Shown here one piece after another: positions 998 to 9,747 of a stretch of 10,787 nt of DNA. Under the pieces are notes generated by a model. It had not been told where the DNA came from. It saw only the letters and a program-made list of their open reading frames with translations, and did not search any database. Within the stretch, counting starts at the first letter, position 1. Each line of letters opens with the position of its first letter. The stretch is from Bacillota bacterium. GTDB lineage: Bacteria; Bacillota; Bacilli; Bacillales; Cytobacillaceae. Made by a program: the position numbers and the translations under genes. The DNA lies in the NCBI GenBank assembly GCA_030705745.1, contig JAUZPT010000066.1, positions 1 through 10,787 on the forward strand, given 5' to 3'.

Positions 998-1789
998 TTA
1001 TTTTCCAATAAACATTGGTTTTCTTTTTTCGACAAATGCCTGAATGCCTTCGCGATGATCTTGTGTTTGTCTCATTTTAAACTGGCCGTGTTTCTCCAGT
1101 TCCAGCATTTTCAATAATTGCGGCCGGTTTTTTTCGGCTAAAATCATCTTTGTTTTAACCATCGCTTCAATCGGGCGCTGCAGCCAATCGCTAACACGTG
1201 CCTCAACCGCTACATCAATGCCATTTTCCGAGACTTCATGAATGAGTCCAAGCTTTAATGCTTCATTGGCTGACAAACCTTTGCCTTCCCAAATCAACTG
1301 CTTCGTCTTCATTTCACCCATTCTTTTTTCAAGGAAAAAGTGTGCTCCTCCATCCGGAATCAAGCCGATACCAATAAAATTCATGGCAAGGACGCTAGTT
1401 GAATCGGCAATGATGAAATCTGTCGCCATTGCTAAACTGAAGCCAAGGCCCGCTGCTGCGCCGTTTACCGCCGCAATCGTCAGCTTTGGCATAGTGTAGA
1501 GTGTGACAATAAGTTCATTGATGCTTTCCATAATCGGAAAAAAATCACGTTCATCTTTCATCGTGATCATCGATTTAATGTCTCCACCTGAACAAAAAGC
1601 TTTCCCCTCTCCCCGCAATACGACAATATCGATCTCATCCGATTCATTAATATCCTTTAAAGTGGATACTAATCCTTTAATCATTTCATTGTCCAACGCG
1701 TTTAGAGATTCAGGCCGGTTCATCGCAACCGTTGCCACTCGTCCGTCTACAGTTACTTGTACCTTCTCTGTTACAAAATTAATGGTCAC
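998..1789 (-). CDS. yhaR: Enoyl-CoA hydratase/isomerase (crotonase) family protein YhaR
   Basis: This is a 263-residue crotonase-fold acyl-CoA enzyme of normal length for the family. The CoA and oxyanion-hole segments are clear: AFCSGGD at residues 64-70 and NGAAAGLG at 109-116. The two glutamates used by classical enoyl-CoA hydratase are missing. The position of rat Glu144 is Ser118, and the position of Glu164 is Phe138. An aspartate is instead present in GLIPDGG (Asp146), as in PaaG-type isomerases. An isomerase or other acyl-CoA reaction is therefore more likely than simple hydration; this is inferred from alignment by eye. The start is GTG, with GGAGG eight bases upstream. Genes next to it in B. 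subtilis (khtSTU, hemZ) are absent here apart from a hemZ relic. Confidence 0.85.
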   Translation of the reverse strand: MTINFVTEKVQVTVDGRVATVAMNRPESLNALDNEMIKGLVSTLKDINESDEIDIVVLRGEGKAFCSGGDIKSMITMKDERDFFPIMESINELIVTLYTMPKLTIAAVNGAAAGLGFSLAMATDFIIADSTSVLAMNFIGIGLIPDGGAHFFLEKRMGEMKTKQLIWEGKGLSANEALKLGLIHEVSENGIDVAVEARVSDWLQRPIEAMVKTKMILAEKNRPQLLKMLELEKHGQFKMRQTQDHREGIQAFVEKRKPMFIGK

Positions 1790-1907: not shown

Positions 1908-1951
1908 GCATAGGGGGTATTTTAGACATAAATAAGAAGCTGACTCAAAAT

Positions 1952-2059
1952 AATGCTTGTTGGTGTGCCGCCTCCGTAATAAACGGTCGTGATGCGTACC
2001 CCTTTTTGCTTGAGCCACTCCCCTATTTTCCTTACTTCATAATGCAGCCCACCAAGGAA
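1952..2059 (-). pseudogene. hemZ: hemZ relic (oxygen-independent coproporphyrinogen III oxidase fragment)
   Basis: Read on the minus strand from 2059, about 36 codons translate without a stop to FLGGLHYEVRKIGEWL followed by KQKGVRITTVYYGGGTPTSI. The GGGTPT motif and the preceding helix are characteristic of the radical-SAM HemN/HemZ family, and the helix is HemZ-like. Full HemZ is about 500 residues. Here the CxxxCxxC iron-sulfur motif that should lie just upstream is absent, and after the motif the frame degenerates to a TAA at 1922-1924. No start codon or ribosome-binding site is present. In B. subtilis hemZ sits between yhaX and yhaR on the same strand, which is where this piece lies. It is best read as the residue of a large internal deletion that also removed the khtSTU genes. 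Confidence 0.75.
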
Positions 2060-2093
2060 GGAAATCAACAACCATATCTCAGATAAAAAAATA

Positions 2094-2141: not shown

Positions 2142-3011
2142 TTAGGATTTAATAATCTTCATTTTCTTCAAAAACTCGATTGGCTGTTGCTTTCTAAAAT
2201 GTTCCTTTACCATATATGCTACACCGTGATCATTTACGGATCGGGTAATCCAGTCAGCAGCCTTTTTCACGGGAAAACCGGCATTTCCCATCGCCACTCC
2301 AAGACCAACTTCTTCAATTAAAGAAATATCTTCATTGCTATCGCCAATTGCAACCATTTCATTCAGGCTGATGCCGAGGTGTTCCCCTAAAGCCATTAAT
2401 CCAGTCAGCTTCGATACTCCGTAAGGAACAATATCAAGGCGCAATGGAGATAATTCGATTGCCTCTATTTCTGCAAATGTACTCATTAATGCCTTTTTCG
2501 CATCACGCAAATCTTCCTCCTCCTCAAAGTACGCTTCAATTTTGGGAGGTGAGACTGGCTGCTCTATTAAAGATTCACTGATGGAAGGAACAAATTGCTG
2601 TGAATAAAAAACCGGGTCTCCTGTTGTAAATACGGTTTTTACAAGAAGATCATTGTTAATCTTTTGTTTATTTGCCAAAGAGAAATCCTCATGGACGATG
2701 CGGATCTGGCATGGAAATCCTTCTAAAAAACGGACGGAATCATAGGTTGCTTCTTCGCTAATCCGCTTCACATATATCGGTTTGGCATTAGGGGCAGCAA
2801 TATAAGCACCATGATGCGCAACTACGAATGATTTCAATTTTAATGCCTTCGCCACTTTTTTTGCAGATGCTATGCTCCGTGACGTTACCAAAGTTACATA
2901 AATCCCCTTTTGCTGTACATAGTCAACGGCATCCTTCGTCGTTCTATGGATTTTTCCGTTCGATTGCAAAAGTGTTCCATCGATATTTAAAGCAAGCAAG
3001 CGATAAATCAT
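2142..3011 (-). CDS. yhaX: HAD-superfamily (Cof/YhaX type) protein with altered nucleophile
   Basis: This is a 289-residue Cof-type haloacid dehalogenase-like protein. Motif I reads LNIDGTLL at residues 8-15. The first aspartate of the usual DxDGT, which forms the phospho-enzyme, is Asn9; the codon is plainly AAT. Motif II is LVTSR (41-45), motif III Lys201 in GVSKLTGL, and motif IV GDSNED (223-228), followed by MGNA (241-244). The fold is therefore intact while the nucleophile is changed, which should abolish or strongly lower phosphatase activity. My memory is that B. subtilis YhaX, a sporulation-expressed gene, also starts MIYRLLALNIDGTLL; if so, this is a family trait and not local decay. 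The ATG has GGGGG seven bases upstream. A good terminator follows directly. Confidence 0.85.
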   Translation of the reverse strand: MIYRLLALNIDGTLLQSNGKIHRTTKDAVDYVQQKGIYVTLVTSRSIASAKKVAKALKLKSFVVAHHGAYIAAPNAKPIYVKRISEEATYDSVRFLEGFPCQIRIVHEDFSLANKQKINNDLLVKTVFTTGDPVFYSQQFVPSISESLIEQPVSPPKIEAYFEEEEDLRDAKKALMSTFAEIEAIELSPLRLDIVPYGVSKLTGLMALGEHLGISLNEMVAIGDSNEDISLIEEVGLGVAMGNAGFPVKKAADWITRSVNDHGVAYMVKEHFRKQQPIEFLKKMKIIKS

Positions 3012-3234: not shown

Positions 3235-3780
3235 TTAATGAGCGGCATCAATGTCATTGATTAGCCACTTGTTGCCAACATTAACGAACGTTATGTTATG
3301 TTTTTCATACAACTTCATGTCTCCCAATTGAACGGTGAATTCAAATAAACGTACATCCTTTCGTTGATAAAGAAGTTTAGCATGTGATTTGTCCCATTGA
3401 GCGATGCTGCCGCCATCCGCATTCGGTTGAGCCATTTTTCCTTTGTATCCAATAAATCCGTATTTTTTCATACCTTTGGTGATGGCGTTAAGTGTGAATG
3501 CCTCGTTAAGGTAGCTGAAAAGTTTTTTCTTCGTATCAAATTCAGAGCAGAAATAACGATAATCCATCCCTTTATATTTAAAACGATCTGATGAACAAAC
3601 CGGATTTTCTATCTTATTATTACTGCCCCCGATCATGCTCCAAAAATGTTCTTGCGCATTTTGAGCCAACTTTACCGCTTCCTTAGCCGTCAAATTATTC
3701 TTTGTTTTCTGCGCATAAGCATCTCCACTAAACGTGAAGAGTATCATTGCCGCCATCAACAATCCAAGAAATTGCTTCAT
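3235..3780 (-). CDS. iseA: Secreted IseA (YoeB)-like DL-endopeptidase inhibitor family protein
   Basis: This is a 181-residue exported protein. Residues 1-23 form a signal peptide: MKQ, a hydrophobic core, and a cleavage site AYA-Q. The mature part has an amphipathic start (AKEAVKLAQNAQEHFW, 32-47), YRYF at 74-77, GKMAQPNADGGS near 114-125, and a C-terminal FVNVGNKWLIND strand region. This pattern and the length match my recollection of B. subtilis IseA/YoeB, which binds and inhibits NlpC/P60 cell-wall DL-endopeptidases such as LytF and CwlO. Two cysteines (Cys62, Cys78) could form a disulfide outside the cell. There is no lipobox. The ATG has GGGGGAT seven bases upstream. The B. subtilis gene is at a different locus, so this may be a paralog or a moved gene. 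The family call is from memory. Confidence 0.6.
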   Translation of the reverse strand: MKQFLGLLMAAMILFTFSGDAYAQKTKNNLTAKEAVKLAQNAQEHFWSMIGGSNNKIENPVCSSDRFKYKGMDYRYFCSEFDTKKKLFSYLNEAFTLNAITKGMKKYGFIGYKGKMAQPNADGGSIAQWDKSHAKLLYQRKDVRLFEFTVQLGDMKLYEKHNITFVNVGNKWLINDIDAAH

Positions 3781-3948: not shown

Positions 3949-3990
3949 GTTGATTGGAGCGGAAAGCGAGTGCCTGGAGCGGAAATCAAC
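3949..3990. repeat. Collapsed copy of a dispersed Bacillus-type repeat
   Basis: The 42-base block has terminal inverted repeats GTTGATT (3949-3955) and AATCAAC (3984-3990). Inside are two direct copies of TGGAGCGGAAA (3955-3965 and 3975-3985) separated by GCGAGTGCC. It is much richer in GC than its surroundings. I recall longer intergenic repeats in Bacillus genomes that begin GATTGGAGCGGAAGGC and end AGTGCCTGGAGCGGAAATCAAC around a GC-rich core. This block looks like both ends of that unit with the core deleted. The repeats are seen directly; the link to the longer family is from memory. Confidence 0.55.
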
Positions 3991-4634: not shown

Positions 4635-4680
4635 AAATATCAGCTTTTGCCCATATCAACTGGTTAAGGGGGAATTGAGC

Positions 4681-6063
4681 TTGACTGGTTCATTCCTTTC
4701 TATATCGATCGCACCCATTGTTCAAACAGCGGGAAATGGAAACTCATTTCAAGCCTCCTCCCGACTTTTGAAAAAGTGGAATATTAAAGAAAACACCACC
4801 GTTATTCTTAAAATAGGAAAAAAAGAGATGAATGTAGAAGTGCACTCGGCAGAAATCCCTCTCTCAGAAATTAATTTTTCAACACAGCTATTAAATGAGT
4901 TTTATTTACCAAACCGTGAACATAAATTTCTTGCAAAATATATTTCTGAAAAAAACACACTTCAACTTGGCCCAATTGTCGGTTTGCTAACCGATTTTCA
5001 ATTAAACGATAATAATGAACCCGATTTTCGTTCCATCCATGCATTTTGCGAGGAGCTTCATCACGGATTATTCAGCTTGGGCGGTTTCTTTTATGTCTTT
5101 CAGCTTAGCGACTATTCGAACAGTACTATTAAGGGCTATTATTTCTCGGATGGTGAATGGACGTTCGGTGAGCTTCCTCTGCCTGACGTCATTTACAACC
5201 GGATTCACTCCCGCAAACTCGAGTGCATGGAAAATTTTCGTTCGGTTCTGCAACGTGTTAGCAACCTCCATATTCCCATCTTCAACGAACGATTTTTGTC
5301 CAAATGGGAAGTGCACAATCGATTAATGCAGGAAGAACATATGCATCCTTACCTTCCCGAAACCATCCTTTTTTCAAAAGAAAACTTGTTATATATGATC
5401 GAACGCCATGGTACTCTTTTTATAAAACCGATTCATGGAAGCCAGGGAAGAAGTATTATTAAACTTACAAAAACAGATGATGCTTTTTGCCTCCAAACCT
5501 CCTTTCTTTCCACTGGCAACATACCAATACAGAAGAATTCAATTGAGGCTGTTTTTCGTTATTTACAGCAATTGTTCCAAAAAAAAATGTACATTATTCA
5601 ACAGGGAGTTCCACTCGCATCTTTACAGGCCAGGCCGATGGACTTTCGTGTATTGTGCCATAAAAATGAGCAGGAGCTTTGGAAAGTAACGTCTCTCGTT
5701 GCAAGGATTTCCAACGAAAATCATTTTGTTTCGAATATTGCTAGGGGCGGAGAATTGATGAAGCCCCATGCAGCATTGTCCTCAAGCTTTAACAAAGAAA
5801 CTGCCATGGAGATCATTGCATTAATGAAAGAACTTTCCGTTGAGACGGCATCCATTTTGAGCAGCAAGGCAACAGGCTTAATCGGCGAGCTGGGAGTGGA
5901 TATCGGGATTGATTCTTCAGGAAAGTTATGGATTATTGAAGTAAACTCGAAGCCATCGAAAAATTTCGAAGACCCCGGGCAAAAAATCCGGCCATCTGCA
6001 AAGTCTATCCTAACGTATTGCACGATGCTCGCTTTTAAAGCTACAACAGAACAGGAGGCTTAA
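4681..6063 (+). CDS. YheC/YheD-family ATP-grasp protein, paralog 1 (YheD-like)
   Basis: This is a 460-residue cytoplasmic protein: an N-terminal domain followed by an ATP-grasp domain of the YheC/YheD (endospore coat-associated) family. In the N-terminal half LGPIVGLL (about 96-103) and LPDVIYNR (167-174) mark the family. The ATP-grasp part has the lysine and glycine-rich loop KPIHGSQG (249-256), MDFRV (320-324), GELGVDIGID (402-411), and the metal-binding EVNSKP (420-425). B. subtilis YheD forms rings around the forespore and then joins the coat; no substrate is known. The frame opens at TTG 4675, but AAGGGGG (4666-4672) is only two bases from that codon. TTG 4681, eight bases away, is the better start. 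It is the first gene of the operon, three bases from the next. Confidence 0.85.
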   Translation: MTGSFLSISIAPIVQTAGNGNSFQASSRLLKKWNIKENTTVILKIGKKEMNVEVHSAEIPLSEINFSTQLLNEFYLPNREHKFLAKYISEKNTLQLGPIVGLLTDFQLNDNNEPDFRSIHAFCEELHHGLFSLGGFFYVFQLSDYSNSTIKGYYFSDGEWTFGELPLPDVIYNRIHSRKLECMENFRSVLQRVSNLHIPIFNERFLSKWEVHNRLMQEEHMHPYLPETILFSKENLLYMIERHGTLFIKPIHGSQGRSIIKLTKTDDAFCLQTSFLSTGNIPIQKNSIEAVFRYLQQLFQKKMYIIQQGVPLASLQARPMDFRVLCHKNEQELWKVTSLVARISNENHFVSNIARGGELMKPHAALSSSFNKETAMEIIALMKELSVETASILSSKATGLIGELGVDIGIDSSGKLWIIEVNSKPSKNFEDPGQKIRPSAKSILTYCTMLAFKATTEQEA

Positions 6064-6066
6064 CCC

Positions 6067-7173
6067 ATGACAACCAGCTTTGGTATAATGTCCATCAATT
6101 TGTCCAGTGAAATCACTTACTTTAACGAAATTGCACAACGCGCAAAGGAACTTGATATTGAATGTTTTCGTTTTATTCCTACAAGCATTGATCCGGTCAC
6201 GCAGCAAGCAGCGGGATTGAAGTTCGATGCAGACAATCAATCTTGGATCAAGTGTGAGTTCCCTATACCAACCGTCCTATATGACCGTTGCTTTTATGGA
6301 GAGGATGAACATTCCAAGCAATGCCTTCCGATAGTGTCCTGGCTAAAGAGCCGAAAGGATATTACTTTTTTAGGTTATGGGCTTCCCGATAAGCTTGAGC
6401 TTTATCATTCTTTGTCACACACTCTATTGGCGCCGTACTTGCCTCCCTCCTCGCCAACAACTGATGCAGAGTTCGTACTGCATCAACTTGAAAAGCACGG
6501 TAAGCTTATACTTAAGCCGATTAGTGGCTCGCAAGGCTACGGAATTTATTATATAAAGAAAACAGAACGTAATTTTCATGTGAAAACTGAAAAACAAAAG
6601 CAGATCATTTCGCGTATTTTCCATAATGAAGCGAAGATTACTCAATGGCTATCTCAATTGATCAAACAGCATAAATACTTGCTGCAGCCCTATCTTGAAC
6701 TGTCCAATAACGATTTGCAGCCGTTTGATATCCGGGTTTTTTTGCAAAAAAATGAACAGGGAATCTGGACAGATCGCGGAAAAGGACTAAGGATCGGAAA
6801 TACTGGTGGCATTCTTTCCAATCTCAGCGCAGGAGGAAAAGTTGCTGAATACGAATCTTGGATAAGTTCAATTCCTTTAAAGCAGCAAGAATTTATTTGC
6901 AGTGAAATTGACTATATTATTCAACATCTTCCCCGCCTGCTGGAAGCAGAATTCCTTCCTTTATTTGAACTCGGAATAGACATTGGCATTGCAAAAAATG
7001 GGTCGGTCTGGATACTCGATGTGAATTCAAAACCGGGCAGAAAAGTCATTCTAAATACAAAGCCCGATTTAACAGAAACTCTTTTTCTGGCTCCGCTACT
7101 GTACAGCAAACATCTTGGGACGATAGAAATGAAGGAAAGGAAGCCTTATCATGCGAAAACGTTATCTCATTAA
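6067..7173 (+). CDS. yheC: YheC/YheD-family ATP-grasp protein, paralog 2 (YheC-like)
   Basis: This 368-residue ATP-grasp protein is close in length to B. subtilis YheC (about 363). It has a shorter N-terminal domain than its neighbours, beginning MTTSFGIMSI, with IPTVLYDR at 67-74. ATP-grasp motifs are KPISGSQGYG (150-159), FDIRV (220-224), ELGIDIGI (301-308) and LDVNSKPGR (317-325). In the last motif the usual metal-ligand glutamate is Asp318, a conservative change not shared by the other three copies. AGGAGG at 6053-6058 is eight bases before the ATG. The end overlaps the start of the next gene by 23 bases, which suggests translational coupling. A spore-coat role follows from the family and the promoters; the reaction is unknown. 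Confidence 0.85.
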   Translation: MTTSFGIMSINLSSEITYFNEIAQRAKELDIECFRFIPTSIDPVTQQAAGLKFDADNQSWIKCEFPIPTVLYDRCFYGEDEHSKQCLPIVSWLKSRKDITFLGYGLPDKLELYHSLSHTLLAPYLPPSSPTTDAEFVLHQLEKHGKLILKPISGSQGYGIYYIKKTERNFHVKTEKQKQIISRIFHNEAKITQWLSQLIKQHKYLLQPYLELSNNDLQPFDIRVFLQKNEQGIWTDRGKGLRIGNTGGILSNLSAGGKVAEYESWISSIPLKQQEFICSEIDYIIQHLPRLLEAEFLPLFELGIDIGIAKNGSVWILDVNSKPGRKVILNTKPDLTETLFLAPLLYSKHLGTIEMKERKPYHAKTLSH

Positions 7174-8515
7174 AATCGACGATAACAGACAGTCTGATAT
7201 TTACTGCCCTCCATCGCTATTAAAAAACGGGCCTCTCACAAAAATTTCATTTGGATCACTTTCTGTTGAAGCAAATTTCCTTGCTCATCCCGAGGAAAAC
7301 GAGAAAATTGTGATGGGAAGAAAAATCTTCGAATCTATTCACTTTCCCGATTTCCAGGTACCATTGCATGTATTCATCACACAGCAAACACTGTTCATCG
7401 GACCATTGATTGGCATTTTCACAGCTGGTTTCACCCCTTTCCCCTTACGGCCCATTGGAGAGCGCTCCATGTTTTTTTCAAAGCTTCTATCTGTAAAAAA
7501 AACGGTTGGCGCACTCCCCTTTTTATTTGGCGAACAACACATTGATTGGGAGAACGGGCTAATTAAAGGCTACTTTTTCCATGAAGACGGCTGGGAAATT
7601 CGGAATGTTCCTTTTCCTAATGTAATATATGATCGGCTTCCCAACAGGAAAACAGAAAACAATTCGACCCTAAAAAAGGTAAAGGAACGGCTGCAAAAGG
7701 ATTACCTCATTCCTTGGTATAATCCTGGTTTTTTCAATAAGCTGGACGTGCATGAAAAATTGATGGATGACCACACAGTTTCAACATATTTACCTGAAAC
7801 GCTCCCTTTTACATCCTTTTCGTCTATTGAAGTCATGCTATCCCAATATGGCCATGTTTACATGAAGCCCATTAACGGAAGTCTTGGTTTGGGCGTACAT
7901 CAAATTTTATTCGATAAGAACGAAAACGAATATTACTGCCGCTATCGTGATTCTGGTGGAATCAATCGCCTGAGGAAATTCAAAAGTCTTGAATCGTTAT
8001 TCAAAACAGTTTTTGGGCAAAAAAACTTGGATCAAATGATCGTGCAGCAAGGAATTCACTTAATGAAAATTGAACAACGTCCCCTTGATTTTCGCGTCCA
8101 CACCAATAAAGACGATACAGGACATTGGAAAGTGACCGCAATTGCTGCTAAAATAGCCGGTCCGGGAAGTGTGACGACCCATTTAAAAAACGGAGGAATG
8201 ATTAAAACTCCTACTGAGCTCTTTCTCCCGCATGAAAGCGAAACCATCATTTCCAAGCTTACACAAGCGGCATTATTGTTGAGCAGTGCCTTGGAAAAAC
8301 AAATGGAAGGAATCATCGGAGAAATAGGTTTTGACCTCGGAATTGACCGTGATGGAGAAATTTGGCTATTCGAGGCAAATTCGAAGCCTGGTAGGTCTAT
8401 TTTTACACATCCCGAATTAAAGGAATTTGACCTGTTGACGCGTAAGCTTTCAATTGCCTTTGCCATTTTCCTGACAGAACAATCGATCAATCATCCGGAG
8501 GAAATTTTCAGATGA
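7151..8515 (+). CDS. yheD: YheC/YheD-family ATP-grasp protein, paralog 3 (YheD)
   Basis: This 454-residue protein matches the length of B. subtilis YheD (about 453). The N-terminal domain carries IGPLIGIFTAG (83-93), a typical family motif, and PFPNVIYDRLPNR (154-166). The ATP-grasp domain has KPINGSLGLG (239-248), LDFRV (312-316), GEIGFDLGID (390-399) and FEANSKPGR (407-415), so the nucleotide and metal sites look complete. The ATG lies eight bases after AAAGGAAG (7136-7143), inside the end of the preceding gene. Its stop codon overlaps the next start as ATGA. The gap to paralog 1 in domain layout is small, so these two probably arose by duplication. In B. subtilis the protein is mother-cell made and forespore-associated. 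Confidence 0.85.
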   Translation: MRKRYLIKIDDNRQSDIYCPPSLLKNGPLTKISFGSLSVEANFLAHPEENEKIVMGRKIFESIHFPDFQVPLHVFITQQTLFIGPLIGIFTAGFTPFPLRPIGERSMFFSKLLSVKKTVGALPFLFGEQHIDWENGLIKGYFFHEDGWEIRNVPFPNVIYDRLPNRKTENNSTLKKVKERLQKDYLIPWYNPGFFNKLDVHEKLMDDHTVSTYLPETLPFTSFSSIEVMLSQYGHVYMKPINGSLGLGVHQILFDKNENEYYCRYRDSGGINRLRKFKSLESLFKTVFGQKNLDQMIVQQGIHLMKIEQRPLDFRVHTNKDDTGHWKVTAIAAKIAGPGSVTTHLKNGGMIKTPTELFLPHESETIISKLTQAALLLSSALEKQMEGIIGEIGFDLGIDRDGEIWLFEANSKPGRSIFTHPELKEFDLLTRKLSIAFAIFLTEQSINHPEEIFR

Positions 8516-9747
8516 ACATCTATTACGATCATTCCTTGGCAAGCTGGTTTCATGAAGAGCTTTCAGCGATTACATTTGGCGGGGAGAAAAAAGCGTTGCT
8601 TCGTGGTAAAAAAATATCGCAAAATATACTTACCTTTCCTGTGAAATTGCAAAGTAATCATGCAGGTCCTTTGATCGGCATCATGGCCGGCAGGAAAAAG
8701 AACAACTCCCCTGCAGGTAATATCCGTCTTTTCATAAAAATTCAAGAAGAGCTTCTGAAACGAAATGGAATAAGCTTTATTTTTGCTCCTGATGACGTAA
8801 GAAAACATTCGATTGAAGGCTTGATTTATGACCCAGTCAAGGGGGGTTGGTTTAACGTAACCGTTCCATATCCTGATATCGTCTATAACCGAATTCCATA
8901 CAGACGCTCTGAAGCAGCAGGTGATTTTCGGCACATTTTCGAGCGTTTCAACGAAAAAAAAATACCTTTCTTTAATCCTTTTTTTATCGATAAATATGAA
9001 CTATACCTTCTTTTGAACGAGCATCCTATTTTGAAAAATTTTCTCCCTGCAACCATTCCTGTCAATGACAAAGAAAGAGTACACCGCTTTTTTAATGATT
9101 ATAAAAAAGTCTACTTAAAGACCACTCAATCATCACGTGGAAAAGGTATATTCCAATTGGCTGCCGAAGGTGATCGTCTCAACCTTTACCAAGGAAAATT
9201 CGTGGAGAGCTTCGAAAATTTCGAACAATTTTGGGATAGTTGGGGGGAACGATTCCAAAGTACAATTTCCCTCGTACAAGAGGCAATACTTCCACAAACC
9301 TATGACGGAAAACGTTTCGATTTTCGCATCCTAGCCCATGCTGATTTTGACACCTATATGGTTACCGGCATCGGAGTCAGGCAATCGATCGATCAAGAAA
9401 TCACAACCCATGTGCCAAACGGCGGGAAAGTAATCCCTTATGAAAAAATCCAAACACCGGAGCATGATCTTTTTGTAAAATCAATTGTAGAAAATGCAGG
9501 CAGCTGGCTGACGGCTCGATGGGGATTTTTTGGTGAATTTTCGATCGATGCAGGCATTAGTCAATCGGGGCATTATTATTTGTATGAAATCAATTCAAAG
9601 CCGATGAGCTTCGATGAACCGGAAATCGAGGAACGTAAAATTCAACAGTTATGCAGATTATTTCTGCAATTGTCCCAGTTCCCGGAAAATAATGATTTTT
9701 GTGATATTTCATTTCTCCCTTTACCCGAGAAAGGGTACAATCGATGA
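8512..9747 (+). CDS. YheC/YheD-family ATP-grasp protein, paralog 4 (divergent)
   Basis: This is a 411-residue family member with a short N-terminal segment before AGPLIGIMAG (51-60) and with PYPDIVYNRIPYRR at 119-132. Its ATP-grasp motifs are KTTQSSRGKG (203-212), FDFRI (269-273), GEFSIDAGI (341-349) and YEINSKP (358-364). The first motif departs from the KPI-GS-G-G form of the other three: the proline is lost and the loop reads QSSRGKG. The lysine and the E-N-K metal cluster remain, so ATP binding is still plausible, perhaps with altered substrate choice. GGAGG at 8497-8501 precedes the ATG. The start overlaps the previous stop (ATGA), and yheE follows at once. Confidence 0.85.
   Translation: MNIYYDHSLASWFHEELSAITFGGEKKALLRGKKISQNILTFPVKLQSNHAGPLIGIMAGRKKNNSPAGNIRLFIKIQEELLKRNGISFIFAPDDVRKHSIEGLIYDPVKGGWFNVTVPYPDIVYNRIPYRRSEAAGDFRHIFERFNEKKIPFFNPFFIDKYELYLLLNEHPILKNFLPATIPVNDKERVHRFFNDYKKVYLKTTQSSRGKGIFQLAAEGDRLNLYQGKFVESFENFEQFWDSWGERFQSTISLVQEAILPQTYDGKRFDFRILAHADFDTYMVTGIGVRQSIDQEITTHVPNGGKVIPYEKIQTPEHDLFVKSIVENAGSWLTARWGFFGEFSIDAGISQSGHYYLYEINSKPMSFDEPEIEERKIQQLCRLFLQLSQFPENNDFCDISFLPLPEKGYNR

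Follow-up and report, generated by a model that had tools for sequence, protein, structure and literature searches.

We found that the interval between a yhaX-like and a yhaR-like gene very probably contains a dead remnant of hemZ, namely the middle 37 codons left behind after at least two breaks in an ancestral yhaX-hemZ-yhaR arrangement. This reading is based on the HemZ homology of the segment, its place and orientation, the intact copies in congeners, the lack of any other hemZ found, the absence of decay and the presence of the same frame on a second contig (P0001). The window, that is, the whole stretch of DNA analysed (10,787 nucleotides), is the entire contig C530 of assembly G000, which comprises 3.33 Mb in 566 contigs and is 85.7% complete and 4.9% contaminated.

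The HemZ-like segment and its locus

On the minus strand, the gene order is yhaX, a terminator-like stem-loop, the remnant and yhaR. The upstream neighbor (2142-3011, minus strand) is a yhaX-like HAD hydrolase (Pfam Hydrolase_3, 196 bits; synteny) and the downstream one (998-1789, minus strand) a yhaR-like enoyl-CoA hydratase (NF005804, 366 bits, cut-off 311; synteny); it is the protein families that were tested, and the names yhaX and yhaR, which we presume to apply, were taken over from the first-pass annotation. In a tree of YhaX and YhaR, the nearest named relative of the window was Neobacillus terrae (support 97). Searches of plasmid and viral collections gave no matches. Elsewhere in the window, an IseA (DL-endopeptidase inhibitor) gene (3235-3780, minus strand) sits between yhaX and a ylbF/yheA-like gene, and no match to it was found in the 18-kb regions of three congeners. 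Four mutually similar tandem genes (4675-9747, plus strand; cross matches mostly 23-31% identity), which we take to be probably YheC/YheD-type ATP-grasp spore proteins, have the same arrangement in each of the three congeners, with the fourth gene split into two pieces in locus L026.

Positions 1952-2059 read FLGGLHYEVRKIGEWLKQKGVRITTVYYGGGTPTSI on the minus strand and are translated without a stop. The serine codon at 2060-2062 also belongs to HemZ, which brings the total to 37 codons, and together with a few additional bases (SFLGGLHYEVRKIGEWLKQKGVRITTVYYGGGTPTSI) the internal remnant extends over 1951-2065 (minus strand), as delimited by a DNA profile, the NF006061 model and invariant columns. 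It is enclosed in a 49-codon frame with a TTG start (1922-2071, minus strand; predicted as an ORF and also present in P0001), whose last nine codons (ILSQLLIYV) form a tail unlike HemZ, with similarity no better than that of shuffled sequences. This frame matched NF006061 (positions 206-246 of the 501 in the profile) with 62.4 bits (E 3.5e-17) and TIGR03994 with 25.8 bits (E 5.2e-6), compared with curated HemZ cut-offs of 702 and 321.4 bits, respectively. A hemZ DNA profile built from 61 of 64 full-length genes (three were omitted because the aligned stretch overran the stop) aligned with 115 homologous bases (interval bases 77-191, corresponding to window positions 2065-1951; 87 bits, E 8.6e-30 in a small search), and no second match was found on the minus strand of the 352-base interval. 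Thus, the HemZ identity of the stop-free minus-strand segment, proposed in the first-pass annotation, is well beyond chance in both the peptide and the DNA comparisons, and the radical-SAM CxxxCxxC motif is indeed absent from the 49-codon frame. The same annotation had described the segment as lacking a start and as 36 codons long; the former is contradicted by the TTG at 2071 that opens the frame, and the latter holds for the core, to which the serine codon has to be added.

An intact hemZ frame (504-542 amino acids from stop to stop, with the radical-SAM motif CPTKCAYC) occupies this place, flanked by yhaX and yhaR and oriented in the same way, in all three other genomes of the genus examined, and the residue encoded by the remnant is the same as in these congeners at 30, 29 and 29 of the 36 codons compared. 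The segment therefore shows significant similarity over part of an intact hemZ whose orthologue is present at the same locus in 3/3 congeners, as is characteristic of a pseudogene remnant, and the earlier suggestion of a deletion of hemZ between yhaX and yhaR is supported. The idea that khtSTU disappeared in the same deletion did not survive: the hemZ-yhaR gaps in the hemZ-bearing congeners are only about 0.2, 0.5 and 0.9 kb, which is too short for the three khtSTU genes and places them outside the event. In other Neobacillus, hemZ is separated from yhaR by approximately 1.9 kb, and this stretch was also considered as a possible site of khtSTU; in both loci scanned it is an acyl-CoA ligase gene instead.

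Breakpoints, preservation and age

The end of HemZ homology places the 5' breakpoint of hemZ at 2063-2071, beyond which approximately 205 N-terminal codons including the radical-SAM cysteines are lost, and the 3' breakpoint at 1945-1951, with the loss of approximately 260 C-terminal codons. The right end of the homology is sharp, directly after the TSI codons, and the left end lies a few bases from the S codon. Since both ends of hemZ are gone, at least two breakpoints are required and one simple deletion could not explain the remnant; an internal scrap with two breakpoints is a less simple outcome than one deletion. Longer, decayed homology past the junctions was examined by anchored extension against six of the 61 intact genes, with 300 shuffles each. 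On the right side, 94 to 300 of 300 shuffles were equally good, and such homology was rejected; on the left side, where 8, 24, 66, 55, 3 and 35 of 300 were equally good, a few more bases are possible.

Direct repeats within 1780-2200 reach at most 9 bases, and no repeat copy of the interval was found elsewhere in the genome (best other match 34.6 bits, with 40 of the 50 candidates scored). At the left junction the sequence is GTTGATTTCC; it is shared with a palindromic repeat located between hemZ and yhaR in L026 and is partly present at window positions 3949-3990. Deletion mediated by this repeat was considered and rejected: the search with the interval revealed no repeat copy in the genome, and L026 has GTTGATTCC within its own intact hemZ at the position matching the left junction. 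For these reasons, no mechanism of breakage is claimed here. As a separate observation, the short palindrome at 3949-3990 (GTTGATTGGAGCGGAAAGCGAGTGCCTGGAGCGGAAATCAAC) resembles part of the longer GC-rich hemZ-yhaR repeat of L026.

It is very unlikely that yhaX and yhaR were misjoined during assembly and that the cell has an intact hemZ. The incompleteness of the assembly and its 566 contigs would allow such an artefact, and an intact hemZ could in principle lie in the part of the genome that the fragmented assembly does not cover. However, the genes on either side of the remnant are arranged and oriented as in the ancestor, no repeat that might mislead the assembler was found, and the available genome contains no other hemZ. 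In addition, the same junction-spanning 49 codons occur in P0001, which is encoded on another contig (3,980 bases), and the single change lies outside the hemZ core. This argues against an assembly error, although that contig could derive from the same sample or a related one.

The remnant shows no decay. At 35 of its 37 positions the residue also occurs in the 61 intact copies, and none of the 19 columns invariant across these copies has changed. Compared with the intact copies, it has a median of six codons with non-synonymous differences, and the medians of the intact copies among themselves range from 4 to 11. In a neutral simulation, all 19 columns survived with a probability of 0.054 when there were 0.07 changes per site and of 0.022 when there were 0.10, which implies that, if the segment is neutral, hemZ was lost recently (less than roughly 0.07-0.1 changes per site). 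The lack of decay indicates either a recent loss or something holding the piece, as selective retention would also give an unspoiled sequence.

Retention would make the 49-codon frame a functional small gene derived from a hemZ piece and selected as a microprotein or RNA, for which the open frame with its TTG start, the undecayed 37 codons and the recurrence of the frame in P0001 could speak, but which we consider extremely unlikely for the following reasons. A terminator-like stem-loop lies directly upstream of the frame, after yhaX (2099-2133, minus-strand 2127-2105, detected by terminator search and folding, with T-runs on both strands); two such structures were found in 1780-2200, compared with 0.2 expected. 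The core lacks the cysteines, and no Rfam family matched the remnant region at the gathering score. When 5.8 billion proteins between 0.55 and 1.75 times the length of the frame were searched, the two matches were P0001 and a partial HemZ from a 236-base contig, and thus no conserved small relative that could represent an independent gene was found. Moreover, the segment is present in none of the other 22 hemZ-less genomes of the family and in no other hemZ-less yhaX-yhaR interval. Recent neutral loss is thus the better reading given the upstream stem-loop and the lack of Rfam matches and small relatives; of the two possibilities named in the first-pass annotation, recent loss is supported, and retention has gained no positive evidence.

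We therefore regard the remnant as real and as a product of ordinary gene decay, with a loss that was probably recent. The ancestor of this lineage would have had yhaX-hemZ-yhaR as its congeners do, and at least two breaks, in the form of one complex event or two deletions, would have removed approximately 205 N-terminal and 260 C-terminal codons, probably together with the hemZ promoter. What is left is presumably neutral and unexpressed. The coproporphyrinogen step might now be carried by CgoX and CgoN, in which case hemZ could have been lost at little cost.

Haem enzymes in this genome

Control of hemN and hemZ in Bacillus subtilis was reportedly addressed by Homuth and colleagues in 1999. 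In the present genome, of which about one-seventh is absent from the assembly, HemZ searches returned only the remnant and proteins far below the cut-off. A radical-SAM search identified 15 proteins, all of which were scanned against NCBIfam. One is HemW (TIGR00539, 442 bits), and 13 are above the cut-off of another named family: PqqE, MoaA, MiaB, lipoyl synthase, MnmL/YtqA, RlmN, QueE, YfkAB, lysine 2,3-aminomutase, spore photoproduct lyase, a TIGR04190 protein and two TIGR04053 proteins. The last one (L017) had no NCBIfam match at E 1e-90. Neither HemN nor an intact HemZ is among these 15 proteins, so that the genome-wide search proposed at first pass gave no intact hemZ or hemN in the available 85.7%. 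The two TIGR04053 proteins, L014 (contig C36) and L015 (contig C46), scored 383 and 372 bits on the model of the haem b synthase AhbD (cut-off 500), in a genome that also has ChdC.

The first-pass annotation had raised the concern that anaerobic haem synthesis would depend on other enzymes if no further oxygen-independent coproporphyrinogen oxidase existed. CgoX/HemY-type genes above the cut-off were found on contigs C80 (480 bits) and C164 (398 bits), and a third, short match lies on C22; this multiplicity may reflect a strain mixture or a real duplication. ChdC is present, as is CgoN/YtpQ (DUF1444; 438 bits), which was detected in 192 of the 193 genomes of the family. Among the matches listed, the CgoN/YtpQ match of 13 genomes of genus g19 (G105, G106, G109, G110, G118, G133, G135, G148, G154, G155, G156, G158 and G161) contains one stop codon, perhaps just the stop at the gene end.

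According to one paper, purified CgoN oxidizes coproporphyrinogen III without oxygen, and ChdC depends on oxygen and H2O2, its anaerobic counterpart being called unknown (PMC10965808). A study on Staphylococcus aureus differs from this with regard to DUF1444: CgoX alone is described as responsible, with and without oxygen, and the HemN-like and DUF1444 proteins as taking no part (PMC6620371). In a further article, 'HemZ' is used as another name for the ferrochelatase CpfC (PMC10991733). The genome thus appears to have other enzymes shown elsewhere to carry out the haem step for which hemZ is named. The above concern is eased by the CgoN/YtpQ, CgoX-type and ChdC genes, but it is not closed, given the oxygen dependence ascribed to ChdC (PMC10965808).

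Absence of hemZ across the family

The family as grouped here comprises 25 genera and 193 genomes, in 170 of which HemZ was above the cut-off. The 23 genomes without it include G018, with hemZ in two frames, as well as the present genome and G143, with short pieces; in the other 20 no piece was recognized, the matches being HemW-like or otherwise weak. In G018 (C1:4026787-4028284), the two frames overlap (1-282 and 275-500), and they may represent either the beginning of a similar decay or a frameshift introduced by sequencing. Among 80 named loci, 64 have hemZ beside yhaX and 15 have no intact hemZ between yhaX and yhaR (a statement on the locus only); the stretch covered in the remaining one, L092, contains no yhaR. 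One of the 15 hemZ-less loci, L041, retains the last 49 hemZ codons.

In a tree of the 80 loci and the window, in which L092 was not counted and which was built by a quick method with long branches among its rows, the hemZ-less state required nine changes, eight of them forced by the starred branches. We infer that these changes were losses rather than gains, which the count itself cannot separate. A link between missing hemZ and missing anaerobic respiration was considered and rejected. NarG was above the cut-off in 11 of the 23 hemZ-less genomes and in 55 of the 170 others (Fisher p 0.16, kinship ignored); where narG occurs only as fragments, for instance in G149 (hemZ-less) and G128 (hemZ-bearing), the genome was counted as lacking it. 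NrdD was above the cut-off in 7/23 hemZ-less genomes and in 4/23 hemZ-bearing genomes that were hand-picked and almost all belong to the same genera (p 0.49, kinship ignored), and the NrdD matches in G018, G019 and G069 were broken up.

The remnant thus serves as a marker: together with the two-frame copy, the C-terminal scrap and the 20 genomes in which no piece was recognized, it shows that many members of this family can do without hemZ, even when they retain genes for anaerobic respiration. This is in line with the more recent view of CgoX and CgoN as enzymes acting on coproporphyrinogen. As hemZ appears to have been discarded repeatedly among close relatives (eight to nine changes of state), also in species with respiratory nitrate reductase or anaerobic ribonucleotide reductase, it is conceivable, at somewhat less than even chances, that the anaerobic coproporphyrinogen oxidase of these bacilli is an enzyme other than HemZ, that the true role of HemZ lies elsewhere and that hemZ-less species are natural knock-outs. 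If this is true, these species could be used to find out what HemZ actually does. Searches of the open-licence literature yielded no title or abstract dealing with the loss of hemZ in this group of bacilli.

Compared with HemZ (TIGR03994 and NF006061, annotated as coproporphyrinogen dehydrogenase or oxidase), the remnant corresponds to a central part of the protein, 37 codons long, at the same locus and on the same strand. Unlike HemZ, it lacks approximately 205 N-terminal and 260 C-terminal residues, including CxxxCxxC, and cannot be an enzyme. Bacillus sp. USDA818B3_A (L041, 10907-11053), which is far from the window on the tree and thus represents a separate loss, likewise has a short hemZ scrap between yhaX and yhaR, and a piece of similar size is present in G143 (C8:35641-35778). 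Both of these scraps consist of the last 46-49 codons, whereas the window retains the middle of the gene. Remnants of this kind are known, and only the instance is new.
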